NCBI GenBank assembly: GCA_025462725.1
Contig: JAOAPE010000010.1
Location: 124,001 to 188,000 of the forward strand
DNA: 64,000 nucleotides
Origin: Terriglobales bacterium
GTDB lineage: Bacteria > Acidobacteriota > Terriglobia > Terriglobales > Acidobacteriaceae
Direction: 5' to 3'
The translations under genes were made by a program, and so were the position numbers. Below, one piece after another: positions 27,438 through 60,089 of this stretch (the first letter of the stretch is position 1; every line of letters begins with the position of its first letter). The notes beneath the pieces are model-generated. The model was not told the DNA's origin, made no database searches, and saw nothing but the letters and a program-made list of their open reading frames with translations.

Positions 27438-27513
27438 GGCGGATATAGTTCAGCGGTAGAACACCGGTCTGTGGCACCGGCTGTCGTGGGTTCGAATCCC
27501 ACTATCCGCCCCA
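27438..27513 (+). tRNA. tRNA-His (anticodon GTG)
   Basis: The extra G at position -1 pairs with C73. The acceptor GCGGATA/TATCCGC, anticodon stem CCGGT/ACCGG with loop CTGTGGC, and T-arm GTGGGTTCGAATCCCAC fold well, with CCA encoded. The prophage begins directly downstream, so its 3' end is the likely attachment site. Confidence 0.96.
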
Positions 27514-27795: not shown

Positions 27796-28968
27796 CTAAG
27801 CGTTGAAGACCCTATCCTTCGTCAGCACCTTGCCGACGATCTGATCGTTTGCTTCCCTGCGCGGCTTCGACATTGCCGCGCCGTATTTCATTGTAGTGCT
27901 GATGTCCGAATGCCGCATCAGCTTCTGTTGCACACCGAGCGTTGCTCCCGTCTCGTCCAGCCACGCGCGATAGGTGTGGCGCAACGAGTGAGTGCCCAGC
28001 CCGATAATCCCGCAGCTCTTCGCCGCTGGACTGAAGTGCTTTTGATGGTAGCTATTCGGGTGGTACGGTTTTGTGCCGGCGAAGAACGGGCTTGCGAAAA
28101 CATAATCATTGTCTCCTTTGAATTCTGTTTTCTCCCGCCATGCCCTGAAGACCAGCGCCACGTTCAGATGAAGCGGCACATAATCATTCGAGGCTTCCGA
28201 CTTCGTGGTCTCTTCCACTTCCCTGCTGATCACTCGCCGGGAAATGTGAACCGTGCCTTCCATCCAGTCGAAGTCTGACCACTTGAGGGCCATTATTTCC
28301 GATCGGCGAAGACCGAAGCAGAATTGTCCAATGGCCATGACGCGCCACGGATCTTCCAGCTCGTTAAAGATGGCCCACACTTCCTCGCTCGAGAGAACGC
28401 GCGGCGTCTTTTGCCGCTTGCTCACTCCGCGAATGTGGACCAGCTCGATTGGATTGCGACCGACCGGGAGATCTCCCCACAACATCGCGCACTCGAAGAG
28501 CCGGTTCATTAGCCCTTTCAGGTTGCCCTTTGTCTTCGACGCAAGGTCGCGGCCGGTCTCGATGTTCTTGAGACCTTTTAGCCAGAGCTGCACGTCGAAT
28601 GGTTTGATCGCCGCAATGGGCATGCTGCCCCACTTCGGCCGAAGGTGCGTCTTCAGGAGTGACTGATACGAGTTGGTTGTGCTGATGGCCGGTGGCATCT
28701 CTTCTCGCTGAAAACGATTAATCACTTCCCCGAACACTGCGGCGTTGGATGGAAGAGAATGGTTCCCTTCGGCCATGCGTCGATCGCGTTCGGTTTCAGC
28801 ATCGGACTGCGTTCGGAACTGTTTGATGGTCCCGAGTTGAATCCGAAGCTTGCACTTCTTTCCGGTGGCCGTCTTCCCCGGGATGCGCCACGTCCAGACG
28901 TGAAGTCCGGATGCGCGCTTCTGGAGTCGAACAGTCCCCCGCTTGTACCTTGCCCTCGTCTGCTTCAA
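27796..28968 (-). CDS. int: Phage tyrosine integrase
   Basis: The 390-residue product has an Arm/SAM-like N-terminal region (to ~170) and a catalytic domain with Arg in 'FCFGLRRSEI' (~219), 'HSLRH' (~328), 'RHSD' and the nucleophile Tyr in 'TTMKYG' (~359). The TTG start has AGGAG 6 bases before it and overlaps the preceding stop (TTGA). It catalyses site-specific integration and excision, here presumably at tRNA-His, which lies ~280 bp beyond the gene's 3' end. Confidence 0.95.
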   Translation of the reverse strand: MKQTRARYKRGTVRLQKRASGLHVWTWRIPGKTATGKKCKLRIQLGTIKQFRTQSDAETERDRRMAEGNHSLPSNAAVFGEVINRFQREEMPPAISTTNSYQSLLKTHLRPKWGSMPIAAIKPFDVQLWLKGLKNIETGRDLASKTKGNLKGLMNRLFECAMLWGDLPVGRNPIELVHIRGVSKRQKTPRVLSSEEVWAIFNELEDPWRVMAIGQFCFGLRRSEIMALKWSDFDWMEGTVHISRRVISREVEETTKSEASNDYVPLHLNVALVFRAWREKTEFKGDNDYVFASPFFAGTKPYHPNSYHQKHFSPAAKSCGIIGLGTHSLRHTYRAWLDETGATLGVQQKLMRHSDISTTMKYGAAMSKPRREANDQIVGKVLTKDRVFNA

Positions 28969-29309: not shown

Positions 29310-29543
29310 TTAGGACCCCTTCTGTATCGCGGCCGCTTCCTGCTCGGCGATCCACTGCGTGAACGTGGACTGGCGGATGCGCCAGCGGAGGCCGCTCTTG
29401 AACATTGGTATCTTTCTTTCCCTCGCCATCGCTTTCACATGACCGTGGCTCACGCAAAGCACTTTTGCGACCTCTTCCGAGCTAAGCAAACTCTCAAAAG
29501 GCTGCGCGTTTGCTGCTGGTAACGCTGATGTACTCGTGGACAT
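29310..29543 (-). CDS. Excisionase-like helix-turn-helix protein
   Basis: The 77-residue product has an HTH_17/MerR-like core: 'LLSSEEVAKVLCVSHGHVKAMARERKIPMFKSGLRWRI', the form typical of phage excisionases and directionality factors. The ATG at 29543 follows AGGGGGT. It is the first gene of the leftward int operon, directly behind a promoter with an operator at its start site. Confidence 0.75.
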   Translation of the reverse strand: MSTSTSALPAANAQPFESLLSSEEVAKVLCVSHGHVKAMARERKIPMFKSGLRWRIRQSTFTQWIAEQEAAAIQKGS

Positions 29544-29559
29544 TGCCACACCCCCTAGC

Positions 29560-29570
29560 GACTGGCAGTC
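29560..29570. promoter_or_regulatory. Operator GACTGGCAGTC at the leftward promoter start site
   Basis: This 11-bp palindrome lies just after the -10 box of the leftward (int) promoter, where a bound repressor would block initiation. The same word occurs twice more at 29691-29717. Confidence 0.65.
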
Positions 29571-29600
29571 ACCATAGAACCACCTTGAGAGATTTGTCAA
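29571..29600 (-). promoter_or_regulatory. Leftward promoter for the xis-int operon
   Basis: On the minus strand TTGACA (29600-29595), an 18-bp spacer and TATGGT (29576-29571) form a sigma-70-type promoter about 30 bp upstream of the excisionase-like ATG. Confidence 0.65.
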
Positions 29601-29658
29601 GCTAGTTCAGTAGCCAAGTTGGTCAACACTCGATTTTCCACACCACAAACAATTTTTA

Positions 29659-29688
29659 TTGACAACGTAAGTAGCTACGGCCTAATCT
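29659..29688 (+). promoter_or_regulatory. Rightward promoter for the ParB-like operon
   Basis: TTGACA (29659-29664) and TAATCT (29683-29688) are spaced by 18 bp, and the predicted start site falls within the double operator that follows. The -10 is a moderate match. Confidence 0.5.
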
Positions 29689-29690
29689 CC

Positions 29691-29717
29691 GTGACTGGCA
29701 GTCATACTGCCAGTCAC
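29691..29717. promoter_or_regulatory. 27-bp perfect palindrome, double operator
   Basis: Two 12-bp arms (GTGACTGGCAGT and ACTGCCAGTCAC) are exact complements around a 3-bp centre. Each arm contains the GACTGGCAGT word seen at the leftward promoter. Position right after the -10 box fits a repressor operator. Confidence 0.8.
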
Positions 29718-29753: not shown

Positions 29754-31718
29754 ATGGCCACCGCAACAACCTCACAACCGCAAGCACCACCCGTACCCGC
29801 ATCGCCGGTACTTCACCATTCCTTCCAAGACATTCCACTCGCTCTGATTCACCCTTCACCGACTAACCCGCGCAAGTACTTCGATGAAGCTGCGATGGAA
29901 GACCTCGCCGCAAGCATCCGGCAGAACGGAATCCTTCAGCCTCTTTTATTGCGTCCGCGTGTTGCGTCCAAAGCTGACGTTGAAGTCTTCGAGCATCGCC
30001 TACATAGGATCGACGAGAAGCTGACGCTGGGCCAGGACTACTTTGAAGTCGTCGCGGGTGAACGGCGTTTCCGTGCGGCTCATCTAGCAGGACTCGAGTC
30101 TGTTCCGGCCATGACACGCGAACTCACTGACCAGCAAGTTCTGGAAATGCAGCTGGTGGAAAATCTTCAGCGCGAAGACGTGACCGCTCTAGAAGAAGGC
30201 GTCGGCTACACACAATTGCTGTCTTCCATGGTCAAGGCGCAGCCGAAGACCGCAAAGCAGAAGCATGTGCAGACGATTGCAAACACGATCGGCAAGAGCC
30301 CGCGCTATGTATATGCGCGAATGAAGCTGGACGAAAGTCTCATTCCAGCGGCGAAAGCGGCGCTTGCGTCGGGGAAGATCATGGCGAGTCATGCGGACGA
30401 GTTGGTCCGGCTCGAGGCTGATGATCAACTCCATGTTCTGGATCAGGAGATGTTCGATCACAACGACGAGGCGATTAGTGTTCGCGCGTTGAAGGCGCAG
30501 ATTGAAGAAATATTAGCGGATCGCGGAAGCGAGTTCGATGAGAACGGTGACGAATATCCCGGCGTTGATGCACGTCCGGAGTCTGAATTCAGGCGTGCCA
30601 TTTCGCAAACCCTCGTAGACGAGCTTACGGCAATCATCGATACAGGCCTCGGCAATGACGACACCCTGCGTGGCATCTTTGTTTCGACTGATAACGAGCG
30701 CTATGCGGTTCAGGGCGGTGTTTCCAGTGGAGCGGAAGGAAACATCGAAGCCGGACTTCGTCGTCTCTATACACCGACCGAGTGGGAGGAGTTGGCCCCG
30801 GAACGCAAGAAGAAATATTACGCGCTTGAGGCCACTGGAAAATCGGTCAGCTTCGACGGGTGCGAGTACATCATCGGGCAAGAGCACGTAGACGTAGGTT
30901 TCAAGCCCCGTAAAGGCAAAAAGAAGGCGCCGATACTGGACGGAACCGTGATGCTCTCGCGTGGCGCGAAGGCTCAGGCCAGCCGCAAGGAGAATCGTGC
31001 GGAAGGCGGAGGCTTGGGGTCGAGATCGGCCGCGAATCAGAAGCGGCAAGCTGAAGGAGATGAGAGAGCAGAGCGTGACAAGCGCATCGCGACCGTCGGT
31101 GTGGCGCTCATCAATGCTGCCGGCAAGAGGCTGGAAGAGCCGAACATGCACGTCACATTCATCGGAAGTGTGCTCGTGCCAGCTGCATTGCGGAGGCATC
31201 AACTGCAATTGCCGCAGGTCCGTGAAGCTTTAGAACATCTCATCGGAGCACAGCTGAAAGGCGACGCTGTCGAGGATGCGGACGAGCAGCTTCTAGCCCT
31301 CTACTGGAAGAACTACTCGAAGATCTCTCTTGCCAAGAAGATGCAGATTCTGTTCCTTGGGGAATTTGCGCAAGTCGTACACGGATGGGAAGACGTTGCA
31401 GAGAAGCTTCAGGCGGCGGCACGAGATCTCGGAGTTGATGTCGCGAAAGTCAGTTTGGCGGCAATCGGCAAACAGCCCGCGAAGCCGAAGGAAAAGAAGA
31501 AGCCATCTCCGAAAAACGGCACCAAAGGTAAGCCTTCCAAGAAGAAGGCATCTGTGGCCCCTAAAGGTGTGTGCGCCAATCCGCACTGCAAGCATGCCGT
31601 AGCAGATCACTACAAGGGCAAGGATTGCACACGCTGCCGTTGCAGTAAGTACCGCATCGCCGCAGTTAATAAAAGCGTCACCAAGAAGGCCGCGAAGAAG
31701 AAAGGCGGCCGCTCTTGA
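29754..31718 (+). CDS. ParB/KorB-like DNA-binding protein with C-terminal Cys cluster
   Basis: The 654-residue product has an N-terminal ParB domain ('LALIHPSPTNPRKYFDEAAMEDLAASIRQNGILQPLLLRP', 'VAGERRFRAAHLAGLESVPA', 'LQLVENLQRED'-type box) and a KorB/ParB helix-turn-helix at ~165-200 ('TIANTIGKSPRYVYARM'). A long middle region of unknown fold and a C-terminal Lys-rich segment with CANPHCKHA...CTRCRC follow. It is far longer than host ParB (~300). Canonical ParB proteins bind palindromic parS sites and clamp DNA. No ParA is next to it. AAGGAG precedes the ATG. Confidence 0.85.
   Translation: MATATTSQPQAPPVPASPVLHHSFQDIPLALIHPSPTNPRKYFDEAAMEDLAASIRQNGILQPLLLRPRVASKADVEVFEHRLHRIDEKLTLGQDYFEVVAGERRFRAAHLAGLESVPAMTRELTDQQVLEMQLVENLQREDVTALEEGVGYTQLLSSMVKAQPKTAKQKHVQTIANTIGKSPRYVYARMKLDESLIPAAKAALASGKIMASHADELVRLEADDQLHVLDQEMFDHNDEAISVRALKAQIEEILADRGSEFDENGDEYPGVDARPESEFRRAISQTLVDELTAIIDTGLGNDDTLRGIFVSTDNERYAVQGGVSSGAEGNIEAGLRRLYTPTEWEELAPERKKKYYALEATGKSVSFDGCEYIIGQEHVDVGFKPRKGKKKAPILDGTVMLSRGAKAQASRKENRAEGGGLGSRSAANQKRQAEGDERAERDKRIATVGVALINAAGKRLEEPNMHVTFIGSVLVPAALRRHQLQLPQVREALEHLIGAQLKGDAVEDADEQLLALYWKNYSKISLAKKMQILFLGEFAQVVHGWEDVAEKLQAAARDLGVDVAKVSLAAIGKQPAKPKEKKKPSPKNGTKGKPSKKKASVAPKGVCANPHCKHAVADHYKGKDCTRCRCSKYRIAAVNKSVTKKAAKKKGGRS
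30268..30281 (+). repeat. Dispersed 14-bp site 1 (TGCAGACGATTGCA)
   Basis: Lies inside the ParB-like gene in its HTH-coding part and reads as the codons for VQTIA. Confidence 0.7.
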
Positions 31719-35522: not shown

Positions 35523-35554
35523 GCAACGAAATGCATTTCAACGGAGGCAACACT

Positions 35555-38539
35555 TTGAGACGAACTATCTCGACCTTGGCTGTGCTGTGGCTCAGCCTGT
35601 TCTTTGCAAACGTCTGCACGGCGCAGACAACAACCGCTTTCGATGCCAATCTGGCACAGCTCGCCGGGGGCGACGTTTCTAATTACCGCGTGGGATTGTC
35701 CGTGAAGAACTGCTCGAACTACCTCCTGCGCTTGTCCGGACCCTCTATTTCGGTCGGAGACACCGCATATCTGACTCCGGACGGCAATGGACTGGTGAGC
35801 GCGCCGGTCCCAGACGAAGCGGCCATCGGATGCGGGTCTACTCCATCCAGCGCGTTCTACACGGTCTCCATTGTCGAGTGGAACTCGAGCACCCAACGAC
35901 CCATCCTTCCCGCGAGACGGCAGAACGACTATGACATCACCGGACCAACATTCCATTTGAATACTGCTACTCCCCGGACGGCACCGGCGCCGGCGTCCAT
36001 TGCAAACGCGATGCTGCTGAATGCCAGCGGTGACCAGACGGCCGTTATTCAGTCCGGCAAGAAGATCGCCTTTGCTGGCGGCACAGTCGACTTCACTGGA
36101 ACCACTCTCACTGGAGTATCCGGTACCGGCATCGCGTCGCTGAATGGACTGACCGTAACCACGCAGACATTTGCAAACGATGCCAACCTCCAGATTTCTT
36201 CGATTGGCGCAATGCACACGTTGACTTGGGCGGGCGCGCTGGCGAAGGCGCGACAGAACGCTCAGACGGCATACCTCGACGGCAACCAGACGTTCACAGG
36301 TAACAACATCTTCAACGCAGGAACATTCACGGTCGGAGTCACGAGCGGATTCTCGACGCTCGGAGGAACGTACATCGCGAGGAACATTCACAACATTGCG
36401 AAGCTGAACGGCTCGACGAGTAAGTACGCGCTTCTCGGCGTGCAATGGCAGGACAATACCGGTTTCCCGCTCATCGGCATTGACACGATGGTCGAGGCGA
36501 CGAATACGGGATTCAATCCAGGCGGGAAGGGGAGCGTGATCGGCCATGTCGTCGATGCCTTCAACACAGGAGGAGGCGAGACTACTTTCCTTTCGGCCAT
36601 CTCTGCGACTTCTGACAATGAAAATGGATTAGCAGACACGCAAAATACCCTGAGCGCTCAATTAAAAATTGGAGCATCAGGATTCTCGACAATCGCATCG
36701 GTGCTTGCGATCGGCGCTCAGGTTCCCGCTGGACAGGCGACCATCCTCACAGGGCTCGACATCGCCGCGATCACAGGCGGGAGCGTGAACTTCGCAATCA
36801 AAACAGACTTAGGAACCGTTAGCTTCGGAGACAATGTTCTCGTACAGGGACACTCCGTCACAGCAGACACGTTCGTCGGAGCTCTCACAGGCAACGCGAG
36901 CACTGCATCTGCCCTGGCATCTGCGCCGTCGCTGTGCGGAGCTGGCAACTATGCACGCGGAATCCTTGCCAATGGCGCTGCGACCGGCTGCACGCCGTCA
37001 TCGGGCTCAGGGACAGTCACATCATTCAGCGCGGGAGCACTCGCTCCGCTGTTCACGACAAATGTCGCGACGGCGACATCGACTCCGGCTCTGTCTTTCA
37101 CGCTCTCAAACTTCGCCGCGCATAAGTTCTACGGGAACAATACCGGAGGCACTGCGGCTCCGGATGCTGAGTCGATTACTGCGGCTGACTTGCCTTCGCT
37201 TCCTGAATCGCAGATTACAAATCTCACTACCGATCTCGGCGCTAAAGAAGCGACTGCGAATAAAGATGCCGTGAGCGGGTATGCAGGGCTCACAGCCGGA
37301 ACAAAACTGAAGCTGGCTGAAGGTCAAGAAGTTTGGGGAGTTGCTGATCTCTCCGATTTCGCTTCAAAGAGCGGAACTGGCACTGCGGCGATCGGCGCGA
37401 CAATCACATCGCCCGCTGTGAACGACTTGCTGCAATGGGATGGCGCGAAGTGGATTAACACAGCGACCATCTCGGCCGCGACGCAGCTCTCCGGGACGCT
37501 GGCCTCGGCTCAAATGCCTTCACTCACAGGCGACATCACAAATGTGGGACTCGCAACGACATTGAAGAGCACAGGGTCAGCGGGAACTTATACGAAAGTG
37601 ACGTTCGATGCACAAGGTCGCGAGACCTCCGGGGCAACAGCGCAGTTTTCAGACATCGGCGGCTCGGTCGCAGGTTCACAGATGCCAGCTCTCTCCGGAG
37701 CAGTCACGAGCTCGGCGGGTTCGACAGTCACGAGCGCAGGAAAGGCCGATGTGATTGACGCGCCCAACTTCTGCCAGGCAGCCGGCGCGAACACTACGAC
37801 CTACACCTGCTCGCTCTCACCGGCGATCTCAGCCTACGTGACGGGAACGCATTACCGCTTCAAGGCTGATGTTGCGAACACAGCAGCGTCGACAGTCAGC
37901 TTCAACTCTGTCGGCGCGAAGACGATCAAGAAGGCCGCTGGCGGAGTCACTACAGACATTGTTGCCAACGATCTGCGCGCCGGCCAATGGGTCGATCTGG
38001 TGTACGACGGCACCAACATGCAAATGCAGAGCACGTTGGGAAATGCGGCCAGCGGCTCTACTCCCGGCGTGACGTTCATGACGTTCGCAAGGACAGGCGT
38101 AAATAATATGCCTCCCGCAGACACGACTCACATTCGCTTCATCGGTATCCCTAACCTCGAAGATTTGACCTTCACGCAAATGACCGTGAACATCGCGGTC
38201 GTCGACGCTTCGAACAATTACGCTCTCGGAATTTACGAAGACGTTTCAGGGACGATGACTAACGTTTGCGGAACAACTCCGCAAGTCTTCAACTCCTTGA
38301 ACGCGGTCACGCTCACTTGTTCCGGAACGACGACGCGAGGTCGAAGGCATTATCTCGGAATAAGCGGAGCGGCTGTGACGATGAAGATTGACCGCGATTC
38401 TGCGCTCGGAAATTTCCTTGGCATGACGAATAGTTCTGTCACGGTGACGGGCGGAGCGGCTCTCGGCGGGACGGCCGGCACGACTCCTGCAAATTCCGCT
38501 TCGACTAATACCGGCGTTCCAGTCCTAGTTCTGAATTAA
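35555..38539 (+). CDS. Fibre-like phage protein with a signal peptide
   Basis: I choose the TTG at 35555, which has ACGGAGG about 8 bases before it and opens directly with a signal peptide (LRRTISTLAVLWLSLFFANVCTAQ). The ~994-residue product then has the repeat style of phage tail fibres ('GNASTASALASAPSLCGAGN', 'LTGDITNVGLATTLKSTG', 'QMPALSGAVTSSAG') and a C-terminal jelly-roll-like domain. A Sec signal on a tail-fibre-like protein is unusual, as fibres assemble in the cytoplasm. It may be a secreted lysogenic product or a mis-routed fibre. Confidence 0.7.
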   Translation: MRRTISTLAVLWLSLFFANVCTAQTTTAFDANLAQLAGGDVSNYRVGLSVKNCSNYLLRLSGPSISVGDTAYLTPDGNGLVSAPVPDEAAIGCGSTPSSAFYTVSIVEWNSSTQRPILPARRQNDYDITGPTFHLNTATPRTAPAPASIANAMLLNASGDQTAVIQSGKKIAFAGGTVDFTGTTLTGVSGTGIASLNGLTVTTQTFANDANLQISSIGAMHTLTWAGALAKARQNAQTAYLDGNQTFTGNNIFNAGTFTVGVTSGFSTLGGTYIARNIHNIAKLNGSTSKYALLGVQWQDNTGFPLIGIDTMVEATNTGFNPGGKGSVIGHVVDAFNTGGGETTFLSAISATSDNENGLADTQNTLSAQLKIGASGFSTIASVLAIGAQVPAGQATILTGLDIAAITGGSVNFAIKTDLGTVSFGDNVLVQGHSVTADTFVGALTGNASTASALASAPSLCGAGNYARGILANGAATGCTPSSGSGTVTSFSAGALAPLFTTNVATATSTPALSFTLSNFAAHKFYGNNTGGTAAPDAESITAADLPSLPESQITNLTTDLGAKEATANKDAVSGYAGLTAGTKLKLAEGQEVWGVADLSDFASKSGTGTAAIGATITSPAVNDLLQWDGAKWINTATISAATQLSGTLASAQMPSLTGDITNVGLATTLKSTGSAGTYTKVTFDAQGRETSGATAQFSDIGGSVAGSQMPALSGAVTSSAGSTVTSAGKADVIDAPNFCQAAGANTTTYTCSLSPAISAYVTGTHYRFKADVANTAASTVSFNSVGAKTIKKAAGGVTTDIVANDLRAGQWVDLVYDGTNMQMQSTLGNAASGSTPGVTFMTFARTGVNNMPPADTTHIRFIGIPNLEDLTFTQMTVNIAVVDASNNYALGIYEDVSGTMTNVCGTTPQVFNSLNAVTLTCSGTTTRGRRHYLGISGAAVTMKIDRDSALGNFLGMTNSSVTVTGGAALGGTAGTTPANSASTNTGVPVLVLN
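35605..35618 (-). repeat. Dispersed 14-bp site 2 (reverse TGCAGACGTTTGCA)
   Basis: Sits in the signal-peptide codons of the fibre-like gene and is read there as ANVCT in the opposite orientation. Confidence 0.7.
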
Positions 38540-38599: not shown

Positions 38600-38794
38600 A
38601 TGGAATTGATAGAGACGAGCAACGTGCAGCCGCGCATGCAGACGATTGCAGATCTGCTGAAGCAGCGCACTGAGGTCTTCCGCAGTGTAGAGGAAGCTCA
38701 GACGCGGCGGGATGCGCCGGAGATGGAACTGCATTTCGGCAAGTGGAAGGAACTAACCCGCGAGATCGAGCACCTTCAAAAGGCCGGTGTATGA
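38600..38794 (+). CDS. Small helical phage protein
   Basis: The 64-residue product starts MELIETSNVQPRMQTIADLL and is all-helical and charged, perhaps a coiled coil. GGGGGCGAG precedes the ATG. Its stop overlaps the start of the replication-type gene. Function is unknown. Confidence 0.55.
   Translation: MELIETSNVQPRMQTIADLLKQRTEVFRSVEEAQTRRDAPEMELHFGKWKELTREIEHLQKAGV
38637..38650 (+). repeat. Dispersed 14-bp site 3 (TGCAGACGATTGCA)
   Basis: Encodes MQTIA within the small helical gene, close to the start of the replication region. Confidence 0.7.
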
Positions 38795-39723
38795 GCGCAG
38801 AGGCCTTGGTTTACGTCAAGAAGCTCACCAAAGCACCCAACGGCGAGGAAGTTCGTCCGATGGAGAAGCTGTTGCTCTGGTACATCGCCGACGGCCATAA
38901 CGATGAGAAGCGCGCGGCATGGCACAAGATCGCGACGATGGCGGGACACAACAATCTCAGTTCCAGGCGCGTGCGCGAGCTACTCGCTGATTGTATCCGC
39001 AAGGGCATTCTCTGGCGCGAAGAGCGATTCCGCGAGGATGACAGCAACCAGAGTAATTACTGGCGGTTCGCTGAACTGGATGGCCCGCCGACAACTGCCG
39101 CGATGGTCGCTGAAGAGAAGCGGCGTATCCGCGGAGAGATGGCGGCGGCCAAGACGAACGCGACAAAGTCACGCAAGAAATCCACAGATGCTTGTGAATC
39201 AGGGTGCGAATCTCCGCAGGGGACGGATGCGAACTCTCGCATAGATGAGCGCGAAGAGTCGCAGGGGGAGGATGCGAATTCTCGCACCCTAGTGCGCGAG
39301 GAGTCGCAGGGGGAGGATGCGGACTCCCGCATGGATGGGCGCGAAATGTCGCATCCCTTGAACCACCATCTATCCGCCAGTGAACCGCCGTTGACCTTGC
39401 AGTTGAATTCCGCCATTCAACCCTCAACAGAAGCGCCACAGGCTGCGACTGTGGAAATTCCCAAGGGCACATGGGCCAAAGTGCTGGCGGCAATGCTGAC
39501 CTCGGGGAAGTTCACCGAAGCCGAGTTCCTGAGAGTGACGGCATGCACTCGCGAGATGCAATCCGTTCGGATCGGAGAGCGAGTTGAGATCGAGGTCGGG
39601 ATGCTTGAGGCAGAGATGCTCGGTGTTCTTTCTGGCGTGATGGATGAGCTAAAGCGATCGACCGGGATGAAGCCTGGCAACTTGAACTTCCGACTGCAAT
39701 TCATTCAGAAAGGCGCGGCGTGA
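38791..39723 (+). CDS. Phage replication-type winged-helix protein
   Basis: The 310-residue product has an N-terminal helix-turn-helix of the phage replication-organiser type ('PMEKLLLWYIADGHNDEKRAAWHKIATMAGHNNLSSRRVRELLADCIRKGIL'). The middle contains three tandem 15-residue repeats (39217-39351; unit ESQGEDANSRxxxRE), and the C-terminal ~100 residues are a second helical domain. It is coupled by ATGA to the preceding gene. Position next to the HNH-like, MazG and HAD genes fits replication initiation, with the partner helicase loader unseen. Confidence 0.65.
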   Translation: MSAEALVYVKKLTKAPNGEEVRPMEKLLLWYIADGHNDEKRAAWHKIATMAGHNNLSSRRVRELLADCIRKGILWREERFREDDSNQSNYWRFAELDGPPTTAAMVAEEKRRIRGEMAAAKTNATKSRKKSTDACESGCESPQGTDANSRIDEREESQGEDANSRTLVREESQGEDADSRMDGREMSHPLNHHLSASEPPLTLQLNSAIQPSTEAPQAATVEIPKGTWAKVLAAMLTSGKFTEAEFLRVTACTREMQSVRIGERVEIEVGMLEAEMLGVLSGVMDELKRSTGMKPGNLNFRLQFIQKGAA

Positions 39724-40461: not shown

Positions 40462-41004
40462 GTGAGCGAGCAGCAAGTACAGTACGAAGCCATGCCGGTG
40501 CCGATGACCGACGAGCAGATCGCTCAGCTCGTCGCCGGTGAAGTTTGTCCGGCATGCGGCGGCCGCAAGTGCGCGGATCAAGCGTTCTGCCCAACGGACT
40601 TCATCGCGCTGACCGTTTGGATGCGGCGCTGCATGAGCATGGGCGTGAAACATCCAGAGTTCGTCGGGAACTTCCGCGGCGCATTGCGACACCTGCAGCT
40701 GAACCCACAGCGGAAGAAAAACATCCCCGTCCGCGCCGGCGAATGGCCGTACAGCACGGATGAGGAGCTCGAGAAAGCCGGTTTCAAGTTCCTGAATCAC
40801 GCGCACTGCTCGGTCCCTGGATGCCATGTGCGCATCGAGTGGTATCGCACTCCGCGCGGGGCGTGCATCGCCGTCAATCTTGCCGACTACCAAAGGCACT
40901 CGCTCAGCTGCGCGGACCCGATGTACTTCCAGAAGCGCCGCGAAGAGCGTGCGCAGACGTCTGCACGGAAGAAGTTACAGAAAAAGAAGCGGAGAAAAGT
41001 ATGA
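40462..41004 (+). CDS. Phage zinc-binding protein of unknown function
   Basis: The 180-residue product has CPACGGRKCADQAFC near the N-terminus and 'HAHCSVPGCHV' later, arranged as two zinc knuckles, and a Lys-rich C-terminus (KKLQKKKRRKV). It overlaps the MazG-like gene by 4 bp. Function is unknown; a nucleic-acid-binding role is plausible. Confidence 0.55.
   Translation: MSEQQVQYEAMPVPMTDEQIAQLVAGEVCPACGGRKCADQAFCPTDFIALTVWMRRCMSMGVKHPEFVGNFRGALRHLQLNPQRKKNIPVRAGEWPYSTDEELEKAGFKFLNHAHCSVPGCHVRIEWYRTPRGACIAVNLADYQRHSLSCADPMYFQKRREERAQTSARKKLQKKKRRKV
40952..40965 (+). repeat. Dispersed 14-bp site 4 (CGCAGACGTCTGCA)
   Basis: Encodes AQTSA in the zinc-binding protein. It differs from the perfect palindrome only at its first base. 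Confidence 0.65.
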
Positions 41005-41489
41005 GCCACCTTGCTGGGGTAACCGTGAAAGACCTGCAGCTTCTTGCCAAGACGCACTGCTCGTGTGCTGGCAGCCTCGCCTATTGCGACTCATGTCTCG
41101 CTGCGAATGAATTGGCGCGTCGTGATGTCTCGGACGAACCGCTCACCTTCGCGCGCTACAACGATGCTGTGTTTTACGAGTCGCGGATCAAGTATCCCGA
41201 TGCCGGAAGGAATGCCGTGTTCCCTGCTCTCGGGCTGATGGGTGAAGCCGGAGAACTCGCGGAAAAGGTCAAGAAGCTGTGGCGAGACCAAGGAACGATG
41301 AGCGGTGCAAACGTCTGCGCGGAAAAACGCGACGAGGTCGCGAAGGAAATGGGCGATGTGCTCTGGTACCTCAACGCGATCGCCAGCGAATTCGGATTAT
41401 CGCTGGAGCAAGTTGCGCAAATGAACATCGACAAACTTCGCGATCGAGAAGCTCGGCGCGTGATTAAAGGTGAGGGGGACAACAGGTAA
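41001..41489 (+). CDS. MazG-like nucleotide pyrophosphohydrolase with Cys N-terminus
   Basis: The 162-residue product has an extra N-terminal Cys cluster (HCSC...CDSC). It then has the MazG-like fold 'LGLMGEAGELAEKVKKLW...DEVAKEMGDVLWYLNAIA', with the ExxE and ExxD metal ligands visible. MazG-type enzymes hydrolyse (d)NTPs to monophosphates. Phage copies may alter nucleotide pools or the alarmone response. It is coupled by ATGA before and TAATG after. Confidence 0.8.
   Translation: MSHLAGVTVKDLQLLAKTHCSCAGSLAYCDSCLAANELARRDVSDEPLTFARYNDAVFYESRIKYPDAGRNAVFPALGLMGEAGELAEKVKKLWRDQGTMSGANVCAEKRDEVAKEMGDVLWYLNAIASEFGLSLEQVAQMNIDKLRDREARRVIKGEGDNR
41306..41319 (-). repeat. Dispersed 14-bp site 5 (reverse CGCAGACGTTTGCA)
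   Basis: Located in the MazG-like gene and read as ANVCA. It is only ~340 bp from site 4, the closest pair. Confidence 0.65.
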
Positions 41490-43719: not shown

Positions 43720-43934
43720 TTCGCGATGAGGACGGAGTGATGCAGATGTCGGCACTGGCCGCGGCAATCCTGGAGAACGCAGAGCAGCGCGCGCGGAAAG
43801 AGACCCGCGGCCGGAAAAAAGGGCAAGGCGTGTGTCCGAAGTGCGGCTTGCTGCCGCGCAAATGTAAGCAACCGTATTGCACGCCGTGTGCGACGGAGTA
43901 CCGCCGCGAGTTGCGGATGAAAACAGCGGCATAA
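43716..43934 (+). CDS. Small zinc-ribbon phage protein
   Basis: The 72-residue product ends with CPKCGLLPRKCKQPYCTPC, a C4-type zinc ribbon. It is coupled by ATGA to the Xre gene. Function is unknown; a DNA-binding accessory is possible. Confidence 0.6.
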   Translation: MIRDEDGVMQMSALAAAILENAEQRARKETRGRKKGQGVCPKCGLLPRKCKQPYCTPCATEYRRELRMKTAA

Positions 43935-43956: not shown

Positions 43957-44139
43957 ATGGATTTTCTTTTCTATCTCATCTTCGCCTTCAGTTTCTTTCC
44001 CGAACCGGCGGTCTCCGCGCCCGTTCCTGTGCAGACGTTTGCACGCGCGCAGCCCGAGTGCCGGTGCATCGGCAATCCTCCGGAGAAAGAGCCGGTGCAC
44101 ATTGACTTCGCGCGGCCGTCACGGTCGCGAAGGTTCTAA
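43957..44139 (+). CDS. Small exported-type peptide of unknown function
   Basis: The 60-residue product has a hydrophobic start (MDFLFYLIFAFSFF) followed by an Ala-Pro region. AAAGGAG precedes the ATG. It might be a membrane-anchored or exported phage peptide. No domain is known. Confidence 0.5.
   Translation: MDFLFYLIFAFSFFPEPAVSAPVPVQTFARAQPECRCIGNPPEKEPVHIDFARPSRSRRF
44030..44043 (+). repeat. Dispersed 14-bp site 6 (TGCAGACGTTTGCA)
   Basis: Encodes VQTFA in the small exported-type peptide; the flanking C and G extend the palindrome. Confidence 0.7.
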
Positions 44140-45114: not shown

Positions 45115-46246
45115 CAGCAAGATCGAGTGGACGGATGCGAGTTGGAATCCGGTGCGCGGTTGTTCGCGCGTGAGCGAAGGGTGCAGGAACTGCTACGCCG
45201 AGGGAGTGGCGGCTCGATTCAACGGGCCTGGGCAAGCGTATGAAGGCCTCGCTGAGTTCAAGATCATCGGCCAAGGCACAAAGAAGGAACGCCGCGAGGC
45301 GCACTGGACGGGCAAGGTGAGTCTGGTTGAGCGTCATCTCGAAGACCCGCTGCGCTGGCGACGTCCGCGGAAGATCTTCGTGAACTCGATGTCCGACTTG
45401 TTTCACGAGTCCATCCCGGACAGCTGGATTGCGATCGTTTACGGCATCATGGCGATGGCGCACCGGCACACCTTTCAGATATTGACGAAGCGTCCGGAAC
45501 GGCAGCGCGACTTCCTGAACATGCTAGCTGCGGCGAGTGACCCTGCCGAGCGTCTGCTCGAGCTCGCGATTGACGCAGATGGCGATCCGTACTTCAGTGA
45601 TCCCGCAGAGGCATGTATCAGCAATGCCATCCATGACGTTCTCGGTGTCCGTGGCGGCGAGAACTGGAATGTGGGCTGGCCGATGCGGCATGTGCAGCAA
45701 GGTGTCAGTGTCGAAGACGGAAAGACCGCACTCGCGCGAATCCCAATTCTTTTGCGCACGGCAGCGGCGGTGCGGTTCATTTCAGCCGAACCATTATTAG
45801 GAGCAATTGACCTTAGCGCGGTTCAACCCATAAGCCTTTGCGGACAGAAAACGGGGACATTCCGAAAGAATGACTGCGAGAGGCTTGATTGGGTAATCGC
45901 CGGCGGCGAGTCAGGGCCGAAGGCGCGACCGATGCATCCGGATTGGGCGCGGCAGTTGCGAGACCAGTGTGTCGCCGCGGGCGTGCCGTTCTTCTTTAAG
46001 CAATGGGGTGAGTGGGCTCCAGGAGAGTGTGCCGACAAGTTACCGGACAGAACAGAACGGGTTGCGACGTGGTTCGCTAATAAATGGGATTTTGAGCAGC
46101 TGACTCCAAAGCAGAGTGAAGAGACTCACAGCGATGATGCTCCGGATGTGTACAGGCTCGGGAAGCATGCCGCTGGCGCGTTGCTGGATGGAGAAGAGTG
46201 GAAGCAGTTCCCTTCCGTGCAGACGATTGCAGGAGTTACTTCCTAG
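45104..46246 (+). CDS. Phage Gp37/Gp68-like (DUF5131) protein
   Basis: The 380-residue product has the family start 'SKIEWTDASWNPVRGCSRVSEGCRNCYAE', a Cys cluster typical of the radical-SAM-like Gp37/Gp68 family. 'IFVNSMSDLFHESIP' and 'FQILTKRPERQ' follow, with the C-terminal 'FFFKQWGEW'. A CxxxCxxC-type arrangement suggests an iron-sulfur cluster. The biochemical role in phages is unknown. A GTG start is used. Confidence 0.8.
   Translation: MADNSKIEWTDASWNPVRGCSRVSEGCRNCYAEGVAARFNGPGQAYEGLAEFKIIGQGTKKERREAHWTGKVSLVERHLEDPLRWRRPRKIFVNSMSDLFHESIPDSWIAIVYGIMAMAHRHTFQILTKRPERQRDFLNMLAAASDPAERLLELAIDADGDPYFSDPAEACISNAIHDVLGVRGGENWNVGWPMRHVQQGVSVEDGKTALARIPILLRTAAAVRFISAEPLLGAIDLSAVQPISLCGQKTGTFRKNDCERLDWVIAGGESGPKARPMHPDWARQLRDQCVAAGVPFFFKQWGEWAPGECADKLPDRTERVATWFANKWDFEQLTPKQSEETHSDDAPDVYRLGKHAAGALLDGEEWKQFPSVQTIAGVTS
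46218..46231 (+). repeat. Dispersed 14-bp site 7 (TGCAGACGATTGCA)
   Basis: Encodes VQTIA in the last codons of the DUF5131 gene. Confidence 0.7.
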
Positions 46247-49624: not shown

Positions 49625-51231
49625 TGGCAATCGTAGAGCCTATCAATCTCGCGGAAGCGCGCCACGCACTGGCATCTACGCCGCGGCAGATGGTAGTAGA
49701 CGGCAGCTCGTTCAAGGGCGGCAGTATGAACCGGCTGAACCTGGACTGGGCAACGCGAATACTCAGCGCGGACCAAGAGATTCGGTCTTCGCTCACTGCC
49801 ATGCGTGCACGCAGTCGGGAGCTGGCGAACAACAACGATTATGCCGCGCGGTTTTTGAACAAGGTGAAAGAAAACGTCATCGGCCCGAACGGTATCGGGC
49901 TGCAGATGGCACTCGACAGCGACCTCGTTCCCAACGCCGAGAAGCTGAATGAAACGATCGAGGATGCATGGGACCGCTTTTGTGAGGACCCCAGCGTCGA
50001 TGGTCGCATGACGTTCGTTGACATTCTGCAGTTGTGGCTCACTTCGCAGTTGCAAGACGGCGAGACCTTCCTTCGCAAAGTGAAAGGCTTTCCGCATAAC
50101 CCATTCCAATTCGGACTGCAGTTCCTCGACCCCGACATGGTGGACGTGAGTTACCAGACCATTCAGAAGACGGACGTGGAGGGCGGCGTCGTCAGCGAAG
50201 TCCGGATGGGGATTGAACTAGACGAATGGCGACGCCCGGTCGCGTATTACGTCTTTGAAGGCCACCCTTCGGAATTTGCCAGCCGGCGGCGTTTGCGGGT
50301 TCCCGCGGAACAGATCGAGCACGCGTTCGTATTCAAGCGGATCAACCAGACGCGCGGGGTTCCATGGATGCACAGCGCTATGACCCGGCTAAACATGCTG
50401 CGCGGTTACGAGGAAGCGGAGCTGGTCGCCGCGCGTGTGGCCGCTTGCAAGATGGCCGTGCTTACGTCGAAGACCGGCGAGGACTTCAAAGGCAAGATCA
50501 TAAAAGGCGGAAAAGGCGGTCCCGCGGAAGTGGACGTCTCGCCCGCTTCTTTCTGGCAAGTGCAAGAAGGCCAAGACGTGAAACCGATCGACTGGAACCA
50601 CCCGAACAGCGGCTTCGGCGATTTCGTGAAGGCGATGCTGCGCGGCGCGGCGATGGGACTCAATATGAGTTACTCCACGCTGACGGGCGACTTGCGCGAG
50701 GTGAACTTCAGTTCCCTGCGGCAGGGCGTGCTAGACGAGCGCGAAGGTTACCGCGTGCTGCAGACGTCTGCAATCTCCCACTGCTGCAAACCTGTTTTCA
50801 AAGAGTGGCTGGTAATGGCAATCACGACCGGCCAGCTCCAGCTGCCCGCAAAATTGCCCCTCGATATGGTCGCGCGCGCCGCGCAATGGACTCCGCGCGG
50901 TTGGGACTGGGTGGACCCGAAGAAAGATGTGGACGCCGATATCGAGTCCGTCCGCGCCGGCATGAACACGCTGAAGTCCGTTGCCGCAAAGCGCGGCCGT
51001 GATTGGCGCGAGGACATCGACCAACGCGCGAAAGAAATCCAGTACGCCAAAGAGAAAGGCGTGCCGATCGACCTCACGACCAGCGGAGCTGGCGGAATAC
51101 AAGGCGACGTCGCAGACGAGTCGGCACCTAGCAACCCAGGTGCTGGCGCGTGCACCGACTGCGGCGCACTGCCCGATGGCAGCGCGACAAATCTACGCAC
51201 TTGTTGGAGTTGTGGAATGGAGAAGGAATGA
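49624..51231 (+). CDS. Portal protein, lambda family, with C-terminal zinc ribbon
   Basis: The 535-residue product has the family segments 'SLTAMRARSRELANNNDYAARFLNKVKENVIGPNGI', 'GRMTFVDILQLWLTSQLQDGETFL' and 'GVPWMHSAMTRLNMLRGYEEAELVAARVAACKM'. It forms the dodecameric DNA-entry ring. Its C-terminus carries an unusual CTDCGALP...CWSCGMEKE zinc ribbon not typical of lambda B. It overlaps the next gene by 4 bp. Confidence 0.92.
   Translation: MAIVEPINLAEARHALASTPRQMVVDGSSFKGGSMNRLNLDWATRILSADQEIRSSLTAMRARSRELANNNDYAARFLNKVKENVIGPNGIGLQMALDSDLVPNAEKLNETIEDAWDRFCEDPSVDGRMTFVDILQLWLTSQLQDGETFLRKVKGFPHNPFQFGLQFLDPDMVDVSYQTIQKTDVEGGVVSEVRMGIELDEWRRPVAYYVFEGHPSEFASRRRLRVPAEQIEHAFVFKRINQTRGVPWMHSAMTRLNMLRGYEEAELVAARVAACKMAVLTSKTGEDFKGKIIKGGKGGPAEVDVSPASFWQVQEGQDVKPIDWNHPNSGFGDFVKAMLRGAAMGLNMSYSTLTGDLREVNFSSLRQGVLDEREGYRVLQTSAISHCCKPVFKEWLVMAITTGQLQLPAKLPLDMVARAAQWTPRGWDWVDPKKDVDADIESVRAGMNTLKSVAAKRGRDWREDIDQRAKEIQYAKEKGVPIDLTTSGAGGIQGDVADESAPSNPGAGACTDCGALPDGSATNLRTCWSCGMEKE
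50759..50772. repeat. Dispersed 14-bp site 8 (perfect palindrome TGCAGACGTCTGCA)
   Basis: This copy in the portal gene is an exact 14-bp palindrome and encodes LQTSA. Confidence 0.7.
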
Positions 51232-53561
51232 AATACGGCCGCATTATCTCGTACTGCATGAATACTCCGTGGGCGATCCTCGATTCCAAATTCGATGCGA
51301 TTGCGATGGTCCTGGCGCGATGCGAGGCCGGCGAGCGACTGACGGAAGAGGAAGTGCGCGATCGCGTCGGTGAGCGAAAAGTGCAAGGCGAAGCTTTTGT
51401 GCTGGGCTCCGAAGCGGGCGTTGCCGCTGGGCCTTCGGTCTTCCTAAAAGACGTGCAAGCGTCTGCAGCTCCCGGTAGGGGGCAGAAGCTTACAGCCGTG
51501 ATTCCCGTCTGGGGCGTGTTGGTCAATCGCGTGGCCTCGCTCGATATCTCGGAAACCGGTACCGGCGTCGATGCATTGGCGGCGGACTTCCGGAAGGCCA
51601 TGGCCATGCCGGACGTGAAGACCATCATCTTCGATTTCGATTCTCCGGGCGGTTCGGTCTATGGCATCGACGAGTTCGCGCAAGAGATCTTCGATGCGCG
51701 CGGGCAGGGCAAGAAGATCATCGCGCAGATCGACCCGATGTGCGCGAGTGCTGCGTACTACCTCGCTTCCCAATGCGACGAGATCGTGATGGCACCTTCG
51801 GGAGATGTTGGCTCGATCGGTGTGCGCATGATGCATCAGGACCTATCGAAGGCCCTCGAGATGAAGGGCATCAAGGTCACGCACATCTTCGCCGGCAAAT
51901 ACAAAACGGAGGGCAATCCTACCGAGCCGTTGAGTGAGGAAGGCTTGGCGTACTCGCAGAAAAGAGTCGGTGAGATTTACGACAAATTTGTTGGTGCGGT
52001 CGCGCGCGGCCGAGCGGTGAAAGCTTCCGAAGTAAAAAGCGGATTCGGAGAAGGGCGTGTTGTGGGTGCCACCGAAGCGAAGCGAATCGGGATGGTAGAC
52101 CGCATTGGGACGCTTGAGGAGACGTTGGCGCGAGTGGGTGCGAACCCAAGCACTACAAAAGTTTCGATGGAAACAAACGTCGAAGTGACAAGAAGGACGG
52201 CGACAGCCGAAAACCAAACGGAGGTAGCAATGGAAAACGCGAATGCAAATGCGTCGACAGTCAATGTCGATGTAATCCGCGCGGGGGCGGTCGCTGAAGC
52301 CGAACGCGTGGAGAAAATCAGCCAACTGGCCACGATGCACGGGATGGTCAGCAAACTTGTGGCGTGGATCAAAGACGGCGCGTCCGTGACGGCTGTGCAG
52401 GGCGAGATCCTGACAGCAATCAAGGCCCAGCCGATCCAGCAGCCCGCCGCTGAACAAAGCCGTGTCACGGTGACTCGCGACGAACAGGACAAGGTTGAGC
52501 CGGGTGCCCGCATCGGACGCTTCATGCGCTCGGTAGCTGGCGCGCACCTGCAGCAGCGCAGAGGCAACTTCATGACACCCGCGAAGTTCGCCACCGAAGT
52601 GCTGAAGGACCCGGTCACAGCCGGATACTTCGCTGCCGCGAATCCGCAAGATGCTTCGTCTTCGAGCGGTGGCGGTTTCATGTTGGCAGACAATATCTCC
52701 AACGAGATCATCGAGTTCCTGCGACCTGCATCGATCGTGCGCAAAGCGAACCCAACGCTCGCGCCGCTCGTCAATGGCGTGTTGACACTGCCGAAGATCA
52801 CCGGTGGATCGACTGCCACTTGGTTGGGTGAGAACAAACCGATCACCCCATCGAAAATCACCGGCGGGCAAGTGAAGGCTGCGGCCAAGAAGCTGGCAGC
52901 GCTCGTGCCGATCAGCAATGACTTGCTGCGTTATTCGAACGGCCGAGCCGATAGCTTGGTGCGTGATGACATGATCGCAGCCATGGCACAGGCCGAAGAT
53001 CTTGCCTTCCTGCGCGGTTCCGGAACCACCTATACGCCGAAGGGTATCCGCAACTGGGCGCTGGTCGGAAACATCGTGGACTCTGCCGGCACGACTCTTG
53101 CAAACGTCCGCACGGACATTGGCAAGGTCCGCTTGAAGCTGCGCGGCGCTAATGTGCGGTTCCTTCGTCCGGTGTGGTTCATGAGCCCACGGACGGAAGA
53201 GTTCCTGCTCAATGTCGCCGACGCGAACGGCAATCTCGTTTACTACAACGAGATGGTCAATAACGGCACCTTCCGTCGTTATCCGTATTTCGTCACGACC
53301 CAGATCCCGGAGAACCTCAACCTCCTGGGCGGCAGCAATGAGACGGAACTGGTGCTTGTGGATATGGCAGATGTTGTCATCGCCGACGCGCCGATCATCG
53401 GCGTAGAAGTTTCCAGTGAAGCGTCTTATGACGACGGCGCTGGCAACATGACCTCGGCCTTCAGCAATGACCAGACGGTGATCCGTGTGATCGAGGAGAC
53501 TGACCTCGTCGTGCGGCACGCCGAGTCGATCGCGGTAATGCAGAAGATCCTCTGGAGCTAA
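51228..53561 (+). CDS. S49 prohead protease-major capsid protein fusion
   Basis: The 777-residue frame joins an S49 (SppA/ClpP-fold) protease with catalytic Ser in 'CASAAYYLAS' (Ser174) and Lys in 'AGKYKTEG' (~224-226) to a scaffold segment and an HK97-fold major capsid protein ('GFMLADNISNEIIEFLRPASIVR', 'WLGENKPITPSKITGGQVKAAAKKLAALVPISNDLLR'). In lambda these are separate (C/Nu3 and E). A strong internal start at 52230 should release the scaffold-capsid part, as Nu3 is from C. Confidence 0.92.
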   Translation: MKYGRIISYCMNTPWAILDSKFDAIAMVLARCEAGERLTEEEVRDRVGERKVQGEAFVLGSEAGVAAGPSVFLKDVQASAAPGRGQKLTAVIPVWGVLVNRVASLDISETGTGVDALAADFRKAMAMPDVKTIIFDFDSPGGSVYGIDEFAQEIFDARGQGKKIIAQIDPMCASAAYYLASQCDEIVMAPSGDVGSIGVRMMHQDLSKALEMKGIKVTHIFAGKYKTEGNPTEPLSEEGLAYSQKRVGEIYDKFVGAVARGRAVKASEVKSGFGEGRVVGATEAKRIGMVDRIGTLEETLARVGANPSTTKVSMETNVEVTRRTATAENQTEVAMENANANASTVNVDVIRAGAVAEAERVEKISQLATMHGMVSKLVAWIKDGASVTAVQGEILTAIKAQPIQQPAAEQSRVTVTRDEQDKVEPGARIGRFMRSVAGAHLQQRRGNFMTPAKFATEVLKDPVTAGYFAAANPQDASSSSGGGFMLADNISNEIIEFLRPASIVRKANPTLAPLVNGVLTLPKITGGSTATWLGENKPITPSKITGGQVKAAAKKLAALVPISNDLLRYSNGRADSLVRDDMIAAMAQAEDLAFLRGSGTTYTPKGIRNWALVGNIVDSAGTTLANVRTDIGKVRLKLRGANVRFLRPVWFMSPRTEEFLLNVADANGNLVYYNEMVNNGTFRRYPYFVTTQIPENLNLLGGSNETELVLVDMADVVIADAPIIGVEVSSEASYDDGAGNMTSAFSNDQTVIRVIEETDLVVRHAESIAVMQKILWS
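51454..51467 (-). repeat. Dispersed 14-bp site 9 (reverse TGCAGACGCTTGCA)
   Basis: Lies in the protease part of the fused gene, in the codons for VQASA. Confidence 0.6.
52230..53561 (+). CDS. Internal in-frame start: scaffold-major capsid protein
   Basis: Within the protease-capsid frame, ACGGAGG stands 5 bases before an in-frame ATG at 52230. Translation from there gives 443 residues starting MENANANASTVNVDVIRAGA: a helical scaffold-like arm and the HK97 capsid fold, without the protease. Making many capsid copies per protease needs such a start. It is an inference from the sequence signal. Confidence 0.65.
   Translation: MENANANASTVNVDVIRAGAVAEAERVEKISQLATMHGMVSKLVAWIKDGASVTAVQGEILTAIKAQPIQQPAAEQSRVTVTRDEQDKVEPGARIGRFMRSVAGAHLQQRRGNFMTPAKFATEVLKDPVTAGYFAAANPQDASSSSGGGFMLADNISNEIIEFLRPASIVRKANPTLAPLVNGVLTLPKITGGSTATWLGENKPITPSKITGGQVKAAAKKLAALVPISNDLLRYSNGRADSLVRDDMIAAMAQAEDLAFLRGSGTTYTPKGIRNWALVGNIVDSAGTTLANVRTDIGKVRLKLRGANVRFLRPVWFMSPRTEEFLLNVADANGNLVYYNEMVNNGTFRRYPYFVTTQIPENLNLLGGSNETELVLVDMADVVIADAPIIGVEVSSEASYDDGAGNMTSAFSNDQTVIRVIEETDLVVRHAESIAVMQKILWS
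53099..53112 (-). repeat. Dispersed 14-bp site 10 (reverse TGCGGACGTTTGCA)
   Basis: Located in the capsid domain and read as ANVRT; it deviates at the fourth base. Confidence 0.55.
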
Positions 53562-55765: not shown

Positions 55766-55779
55766 TGCAGACGATTGCA
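55766..55779 (+). repeat. Dispersed 14-bp site 11 (TGCAGACGATTGCA)
   Basis: This intergenic copy is not read as protein and keeps the 16-bp extended form (G...C flanks), forming a small CGTGCA/TGCACG hairpin. Confidence 0.75.
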
Positions 55780-60075: not shown

Positions 60076-60089
60076 TGCAGACGTTTGCA
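60076..60089 (+). repeat. Dispersed 14-bp site 12 (TGCAGACGTTTGCA)
   Basis: This intergenic copy lies three bases after the tape measure stop codon. Confidence 0.75.

Follow-up and report, generated by a model that had tools for sequence, protein, structure and literature searches.

What does a ParB-type protein do on a phage that integrates into the chromosome of its host and carries no ParA? The question is raised by a prophage of a Terriglobales bacterium, most of which lies in a stretch of 64,000 nucleotides (contig JAOAPE010000010.1, positions 124,001 to 188,000), hereafter called the window, whose numbering is used throughout. Orphan ParBs are common on mobile elements, and the targets and roles of those on phages are largely obscure (PMC12704722). 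A PNAS survey of 2025 reported orphan proteins with the ParB-CTPase fold in phages and prophages, some of which bind CTP, ATP or GTP, and its main text mentions no palindrome or parS-like site for them (PMC12704722). The original prediction for the locus paired the protein with palindromes dispersed over the prophage and proposed that, as an integrating phage should not need plasmid-type partition, a ParB-CTPase may have been repurposed for prophage silencing, DNA condensation or packaging control.

The prophage (27,486-69,991) is integrated at tRNA-His and bounded by two copies of the 28-bp 3' end of this gene (attL, 27486-27513, plus strand; repeated as attR at 69964), and its gene content comprises integrase, replication initiator, terminase, portal, protease-capsid and tail genes. 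A tyrosine integrase assigned by Pfam (27796-28968, minus strand) and an HTH_17 excisionase/AlpA-like gene assigned by PHROG (29310-29600, minus strand) precede parB (29754-31718, plus strand), which is divergent from the latter and, as had been predicted of the first gene of a rightward operon, opens a rightward gene run. Ahead of it lie a promoter-like sequence, TTGACA-N18-TAATCT (29659-29688, plus strand), read by eye and not reported by a consensus scan, and a perfect inverted repeat of 23 bp, GACTGGCAGT-CAT-ACTGCCAGTC (29693-29715), a putative operator just upstream of parB, a half site of which also occurs at 29560-29570. The operator-like GACTGGCAGTC has only three occurrences in the whole genome, and its prophage copies are confined to the xis-parB divergent region (29310-29715). 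No ParA was found on the prophage, as anticipated; the host's own parA lies elsewhere, at C4:281 kb, and the canonical parS of the host, TGTTCCACGTGGAACA, has copies near the host parAB and none on the prophage. Apart from these genes, an ORF of 1002 aa with a signal-peptide-like start (35531-38539) had no match in Pfam or PHROG, three tandem 45-nt repeats (39206-39340) within the replication-initiator-like gene (38743-39723) are possible origin iterons, and one ORF (51150-53561) apparently fuses head-maturation protease and major capsid protein.

By its sequence the 654-aa product of parB is a genuine ParB with CTP-pocket motifs and an HTH, and its use of CTP is predicted. The Pfam domains ParB_N (E=5.5e-27, 94.1 bits) and HTH_ParB (E=2e-5, 25.1 bits) both scored above their curated cutoffs, PHROG 4715, a 'ParB-like partition protein', was matched at 8.7e-42, Thermus Spo0J was the best solved relative (9e-31), and the ParB family model TIGR00180 was exceeded clearly (113.6 against a cutoff of 58.5), whereas scores fell short of the Noc model TIGR04285 (128 against 315) and the PRTRC ParB model TIGR03734 (111.7 against 278.6). 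The HTH is of the ParB type (PF17762), and its former label as KorB-like found no support; the KorB domain (PF08535) had no Pfam match in the protein and only sub-threshold matches in two phage relatives. Structure prediction and a check of the CTPase motifs, both proposed along with the original prediction, agree with a ParB. Box I, GERR and ENxQR are all present (NPRKYFD, VAGERRFRAA and ENLQRED), and their columns are conserved in alignments of ParB relatives; AlphaFold modelled residues about 20-255 confidently and most of the rest poorly (mean pLDDT 60.5), and with the confident part Foldseek matched structures of ParB-CDP, Noc and KorB. Within that part the ParB_N/CTPase fold spans residues about 23-139 and the HTH about 141-253, followed by roughly 400 residues modelled at low confidence and with no fold assigned, at the end of which stands the Cys cluster CANPHCKH...CTRCRC, so that the N-terminal domain, the long C-terminus and the cluster are all as first described. 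A database search with the single 654-aa sequence found no relative; relatives were retrieved with an alignment of three N-terminal ParB sequences.

The 16-letter palindrome GTGCARACGTYTGCAC occurs on the prophage at 15 places with at most one mismatch in its 14-bp core, 14 of them outside parB and all between attL and attR, and is nearly missing from the remainder of the 4.33-Mb genome; the degenerate pattern, too, is nearly confined to the prophage. In the window TGCARACGTYTGCA was matched 16 times with up to two mismatches, where 1.1 matches were expected, and none of 100 shuffles reached 16. The copy inside the HTH codons of parB, which the original prediction had already pointed out, is TGCAGACGATTGCA, with one mismatch, at codons 172-176 (VQTIA; 30268-30281). 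Exact sites are TGCAAACGTCTGCA at the very start of the 1002-aa ORF (35605-35618), TGCAGACGTTTGCA at 44030-44043, 2.6 kb before the large-terminase start, and again at 60076-60089 between the tape-measure and distal-tail genes, and TGCAGACGTCTGCA within the portal gene (50759-50772). With one mismatch, TGCAGACGATTGCA recurs at 38637-38650, at 46218-46231, 0.44 kb before the large-terminase start, and at 55766-55779 in an intergenic position, and further sites of this grade are CGCAGACGTCTGCA (40952-40965), TGCAAACGTCTGCG (41306-41319), TGCAAGCGTCTGCA (51454-51467), TGCAAACGTCCGCA (53099-53112) and TGCATACGTCTGCA (63427-63440). Weak sites with two mismatches are CGCAGACATTTGCA (36162-36175) and TGCAGATGTCGGCA (43741-43754), and two further sites lie past the window end (L004:3243 and L004:5718, equivalent to 67243 and 69718). 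Chance or base composition as the source of the palindrome was rejected on the strength of shuffled sequences, of the reversed pattern and of some 700 permuted palindromes.

The pairing of protein and palindrome, claimed at the outset for one locus, was borne out by comparison in both directions and is shared by many temperate phages that are unrelated. When the surroundings of ParB homologues in this bacterial family were searched blindly for enriched palindromes, the same one came up in a single further genome (G064), that of a different genus, where a prophage has 10 sites in 42 kb; all seven exact copies lie around its ParB within these 42 kb, and no exact copy exists elsewhere in 5.65 Mb. 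Among viral contigs, 23 of the 33 whose ParBs are closest carry the palindrome (63 sites against 0 for the reversed pattern), as was to be asked of other phages with such proteins; a wider set of 50 contigs (34 positive) was not relied on, because some of its members had been added for having sites. For the reverse test, viral contigs of at least 27 kb were picked solely by GTGCAGACGTCTGCAC; of these 44, 39 encode a ParB of this type, against one of 32 controls picked by an arbitrary 14-mer (Fisher p=6e-15), counts which are not fully independent since the phages share ancestry; besides the one strong match counted, the controls held one weak match. In many relatives the copy within parB is conserved and overlaps the conserved protein motif ADVCT, and that copy alone therefore proves little. 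An origin of the palindrome as a coding artefact of the ADVCT codons was rejected, as the pairing persists when this copy is left out: 32 of 37 contigs still encode a ParB after removal of those retrieved by the copy in parB (p=3e-13). With parB masked, 145 sites remained in 28 genomes, part of them chosen by the motif and a few with parB uncalled and hence unmasked, against a median of 1 for 300 permuted palindromes and 12 for the best clearly unrelated one. In IMG/VR the palindrome was present in at least 120 stretches, and one palindrome of the same composition in 2.

The isolated temperate phages VarioGold and Aval have five sites each, with about 0.1 expected, and a Comamonas record labelled as a plasmid is a circular phage genome with six sites and an integrase gene. 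None of the 41 site-bearing contigs encodes a ParA, and three regions from ordinary plasmids that encode related ParBs (one PRTRC, two others) had no site. Site and protein also vary together to a degree: at least two sites were found with 22 of 43 ParB homologues that have a recognition helix of the Y-x-R type and with 1 of 25 that have other helices, shared ancestry being ignored in this comparison. About a third of the ParB-bearing contigs have no site, some despite a similar helix, which would mean that specificity is variable or that incomplete contigs conceal sites. A set of 162 sites taken from 28 phage genomes gave the profile G-TGCA-R-ACGT-Y-TGCA-C (16 bp), whose ACGT centre and length are those of parS and whose flanks differ. 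Because the comparative tests tie protein and palindrome to each other both ways, the palindrome is very probably the loading or landing site of the phage ParB. We propose a class of phage ParB with GTGCARACGTYTGCAC sites, defined by at least two palindromes outside parB and no ParA; the prophage has both features. Of the components of ParABS it lacks the ParA partner and has, to judge by this mutual co-occurrence, a putative cognate centromere-like palindrome.

Other repeats were seen near related proteins. In contig G689 (L121) the sites are almost all TGCAAACGTTTGCA and cluster at the contig ends, and the ParB has an atypical recognition helix, possibly a specificity variant. Near other orphan ParBs (G138, G230; L030-L032, L047-L049), whose recognition helix is of another kind, TTGCCN9GGCAA recurs, a weak signal that may be another type of ParB site. 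In the G064 region (L024-L026) palindromes centred on GCGATCGC are frequent across the host region and reminiscent of genome repeats of the HIP1 type.

On the phage genomes the sites are spaced more evenly than random (CV 0.63 against 0.82, reached in 0 of 500 trials). Most lie within genes, and 41% are intergenic where 18% of the sequence is (rough gene calling), an enrichment that would also fit local gene regulation. Sites recur 0.5-4 kb before the large-terminase gene (TerL) in 19 of 23 genomes against a null mean of 9.2, in an interval picked after the data had been seen; the best 2-kb interval anywhere gave 16 against a null maximum of 13.

The time at which ParB would be made may be gauged from its relatives. 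The usual gene order is int, parB, a few early genes, cI, cII, primase and terminase (TerL). In VarioGold the operator RTAGCN4GCTAY has exactly four copies, one pair in the gap between cI and cro and another in front of the leftward parB operon. The arrangement is the same in Aval and the Comamonas phage, where operators of the cI-cro/cII region recur at the head of the parB operon, with sequences that differ from those of VarioGold. By lambda logic, cI-type operators ahead of the parB operon mean repression in the lysogen and early lytic expression, and ParB is thus probably not made in the lysogen but appears early in the lytic phase. On the prophage no CI-type or other lysogeny repressor was recognised, and the timing of its parB is therefore argued by analogy. 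Since parB is probably off in the lysogen, a lytic role is favoured over prophage silencing; the idea of a repurposed ParB-CTPase holds as far as a ParA-less ParB with CTP motifs is concerned, and its silencing variant has become less likely with the operators of the three relatives.

On balance we favour the reading that the ParA-less phage ParB acts on the phage's own genome in lytic growth. Its HTH would recognise GTGCARACGTYTGCAC, a step for which the co-occurrence of protein and palindrome leaves little doubt. Site binding would then let the CTP-bound dimer close round the DNA and slide, and from 5-15 evenly dispersed sites clamps would be loaded along the entire 40-kb phage chromosome, with host DNA left free, which is likely in view of the conserved ParB-CTPase fold. 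With parB in a repressor-controlled early operon, loading would start after induction or infection and not in the quiescent lysogen; this is rather probable, being supported in the three relatives and extended to the prophage by analogy. In the last and least certain step, clamped phage DNA would form a distinct nucleoprotein body aiding lytic development. For N15 Sop a facilitating role in the expression of late genes has been reported (Ravin, Rech and Lane 2008, by its title as cited in PMC11652158), and as the site recurs just before the terminase genes, help of ParB clamps with late expression is offered as a tentative first guess. A role in packaging or condensation during lytic growth, as the original prediction had it, is possible. 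It is conceivable, though doubtful, that genome marking of this kind is widespread among phages, an early ParB clamp coating the whole phage chromosome from evenly dispersed sites without ParA, keeping phage and host DNA apart and governing compaction, late expression or the shielding of phage DNA against host defence.

This lytic reading has to be weighed against a regulator of the KorB kind, in which the clamp would slide from dispersed operators to promoters and silence phage genes, in the lysogen or as early-gene shut-off, with a partner repressor as clamp lock. RK2 KorB is indeed a ParB-fold CTP clamp with 16-bp operators that acts at distances up to more than 1 kb (PMC11790492), the phage protein matches its fold in Foldseek, and the sites are enriched between genes. 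However, most sites lie in genes, including structural genes far from obvious promoters, their spacing is even, and the cI-type operators of the three relatives predict absence in the lysogen, all of which makes this regulator unlikely. The even coverage of the whole genome would suit a protective coat as well, the clamps shielding phage DNA from host nucleases, restriction translocases or SMC-type (Wadjet) defence, and parB stands in the early-left region between int and cI, the home of accessory early genes; yet neither a defence partner nor a target was found, PADLOC gave no match for the ParB of the prophage or of VarioGold, and we regard such a coat as quite unlikely.

That the palindromes belong to another phage protein, to which ParB is unrelated, has a model in the mycobacteriophage stoperators, whose repressors bind many sites across the phage genome (PMC9283540). 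Against it, palindrome predicts ParB and vice versa across diverse phages, and the cI-type operators of three such phages differ in sequence from the palindrome, which leaves this explanation very improbable. Hardly more credit is due to true partition, by which ParB and its sites would segregate an unintegrated phage form via host ParA: the ParB fold and one relative on record as a circular plasmid speak for it, but all 41 contigs are without ParA, the phage integrates at a tRNA gene, the 'plasmid' relative encodes an integrase, and the host parS set is separate with no member on the prophage. Partition of the plasmid type was rejected on account of the missing ParA and the integrated state.

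The palindrome gives a large group of orphan phage ParBs a concrete predicted target site, and as this site occurs in isolated, inducible phages such as VarioGold, the role of ParB is directly testable. Dispersed parS-like sites thus extend beyond plasmid prophages of the N15 kind, which suggests that clamps of the partition type have been put to new use in the lytic development of phages. In the VarioGold paper the gene carries no more than the label 'ParB partition protein family', and no earlier description of the pairing, nor the palindrome in any of four spellings, was found in the accessible literature, mostly papers outside subscription journals, so that novelty is provisional. To orphan ParBs the prophage system adds a newly recognised site family.

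Among known systems N15 Sop is the nearest precedent and RK2 KorB the nearest mechanistic one. The Sop sites of N15 are reportedly dispersed and near late control elements. Like the present proteins, N15 SopB is of the ParB type and comes from a lambdoid phage whose genome bears several of its sites (IR1-4); N15, however, is a plasmid prophage with SopA and an 18-bp site, GTGCGACCNNGGTCGCAC, while the phages treated here are integrating, without ParA, and have a site of 16 bp centred on ACGT and a far longer ParB. SopB sites of N15 begin with GTGC and end with GCAC (oligonucleotides in PMC7205306). Some phage relatives have the PRTRC-system ParB (TIGR03734) as their closest ParB-specific NCBIfam model, though below cutoff; that protein is found with PRTRC genes on plasmids, and one PRTRC plasmid region had no sites. 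Chromosomal ParB/parS and Noc/NBS share the ParB_N and HTH fold, parS being of 16 bp with an ACGT centre and Noc working without ParA, but the chromosomal parS has another sequence (TGTTCCACGTGGAACA in the host), the phage sites occur along the entire element, and the phage ParB has a different C-terminus. RK2 KorB with its operator OB is an orphan-acting ParB-fold protein with 16-bp operators and long-range CTP-clamp action (PMC11790492); whereas KorB is a plasmid silencer working with KorA, the present system resides on phage genomes, with a different palindrome, a probable early lytic operon and no KorA-like partner identified.
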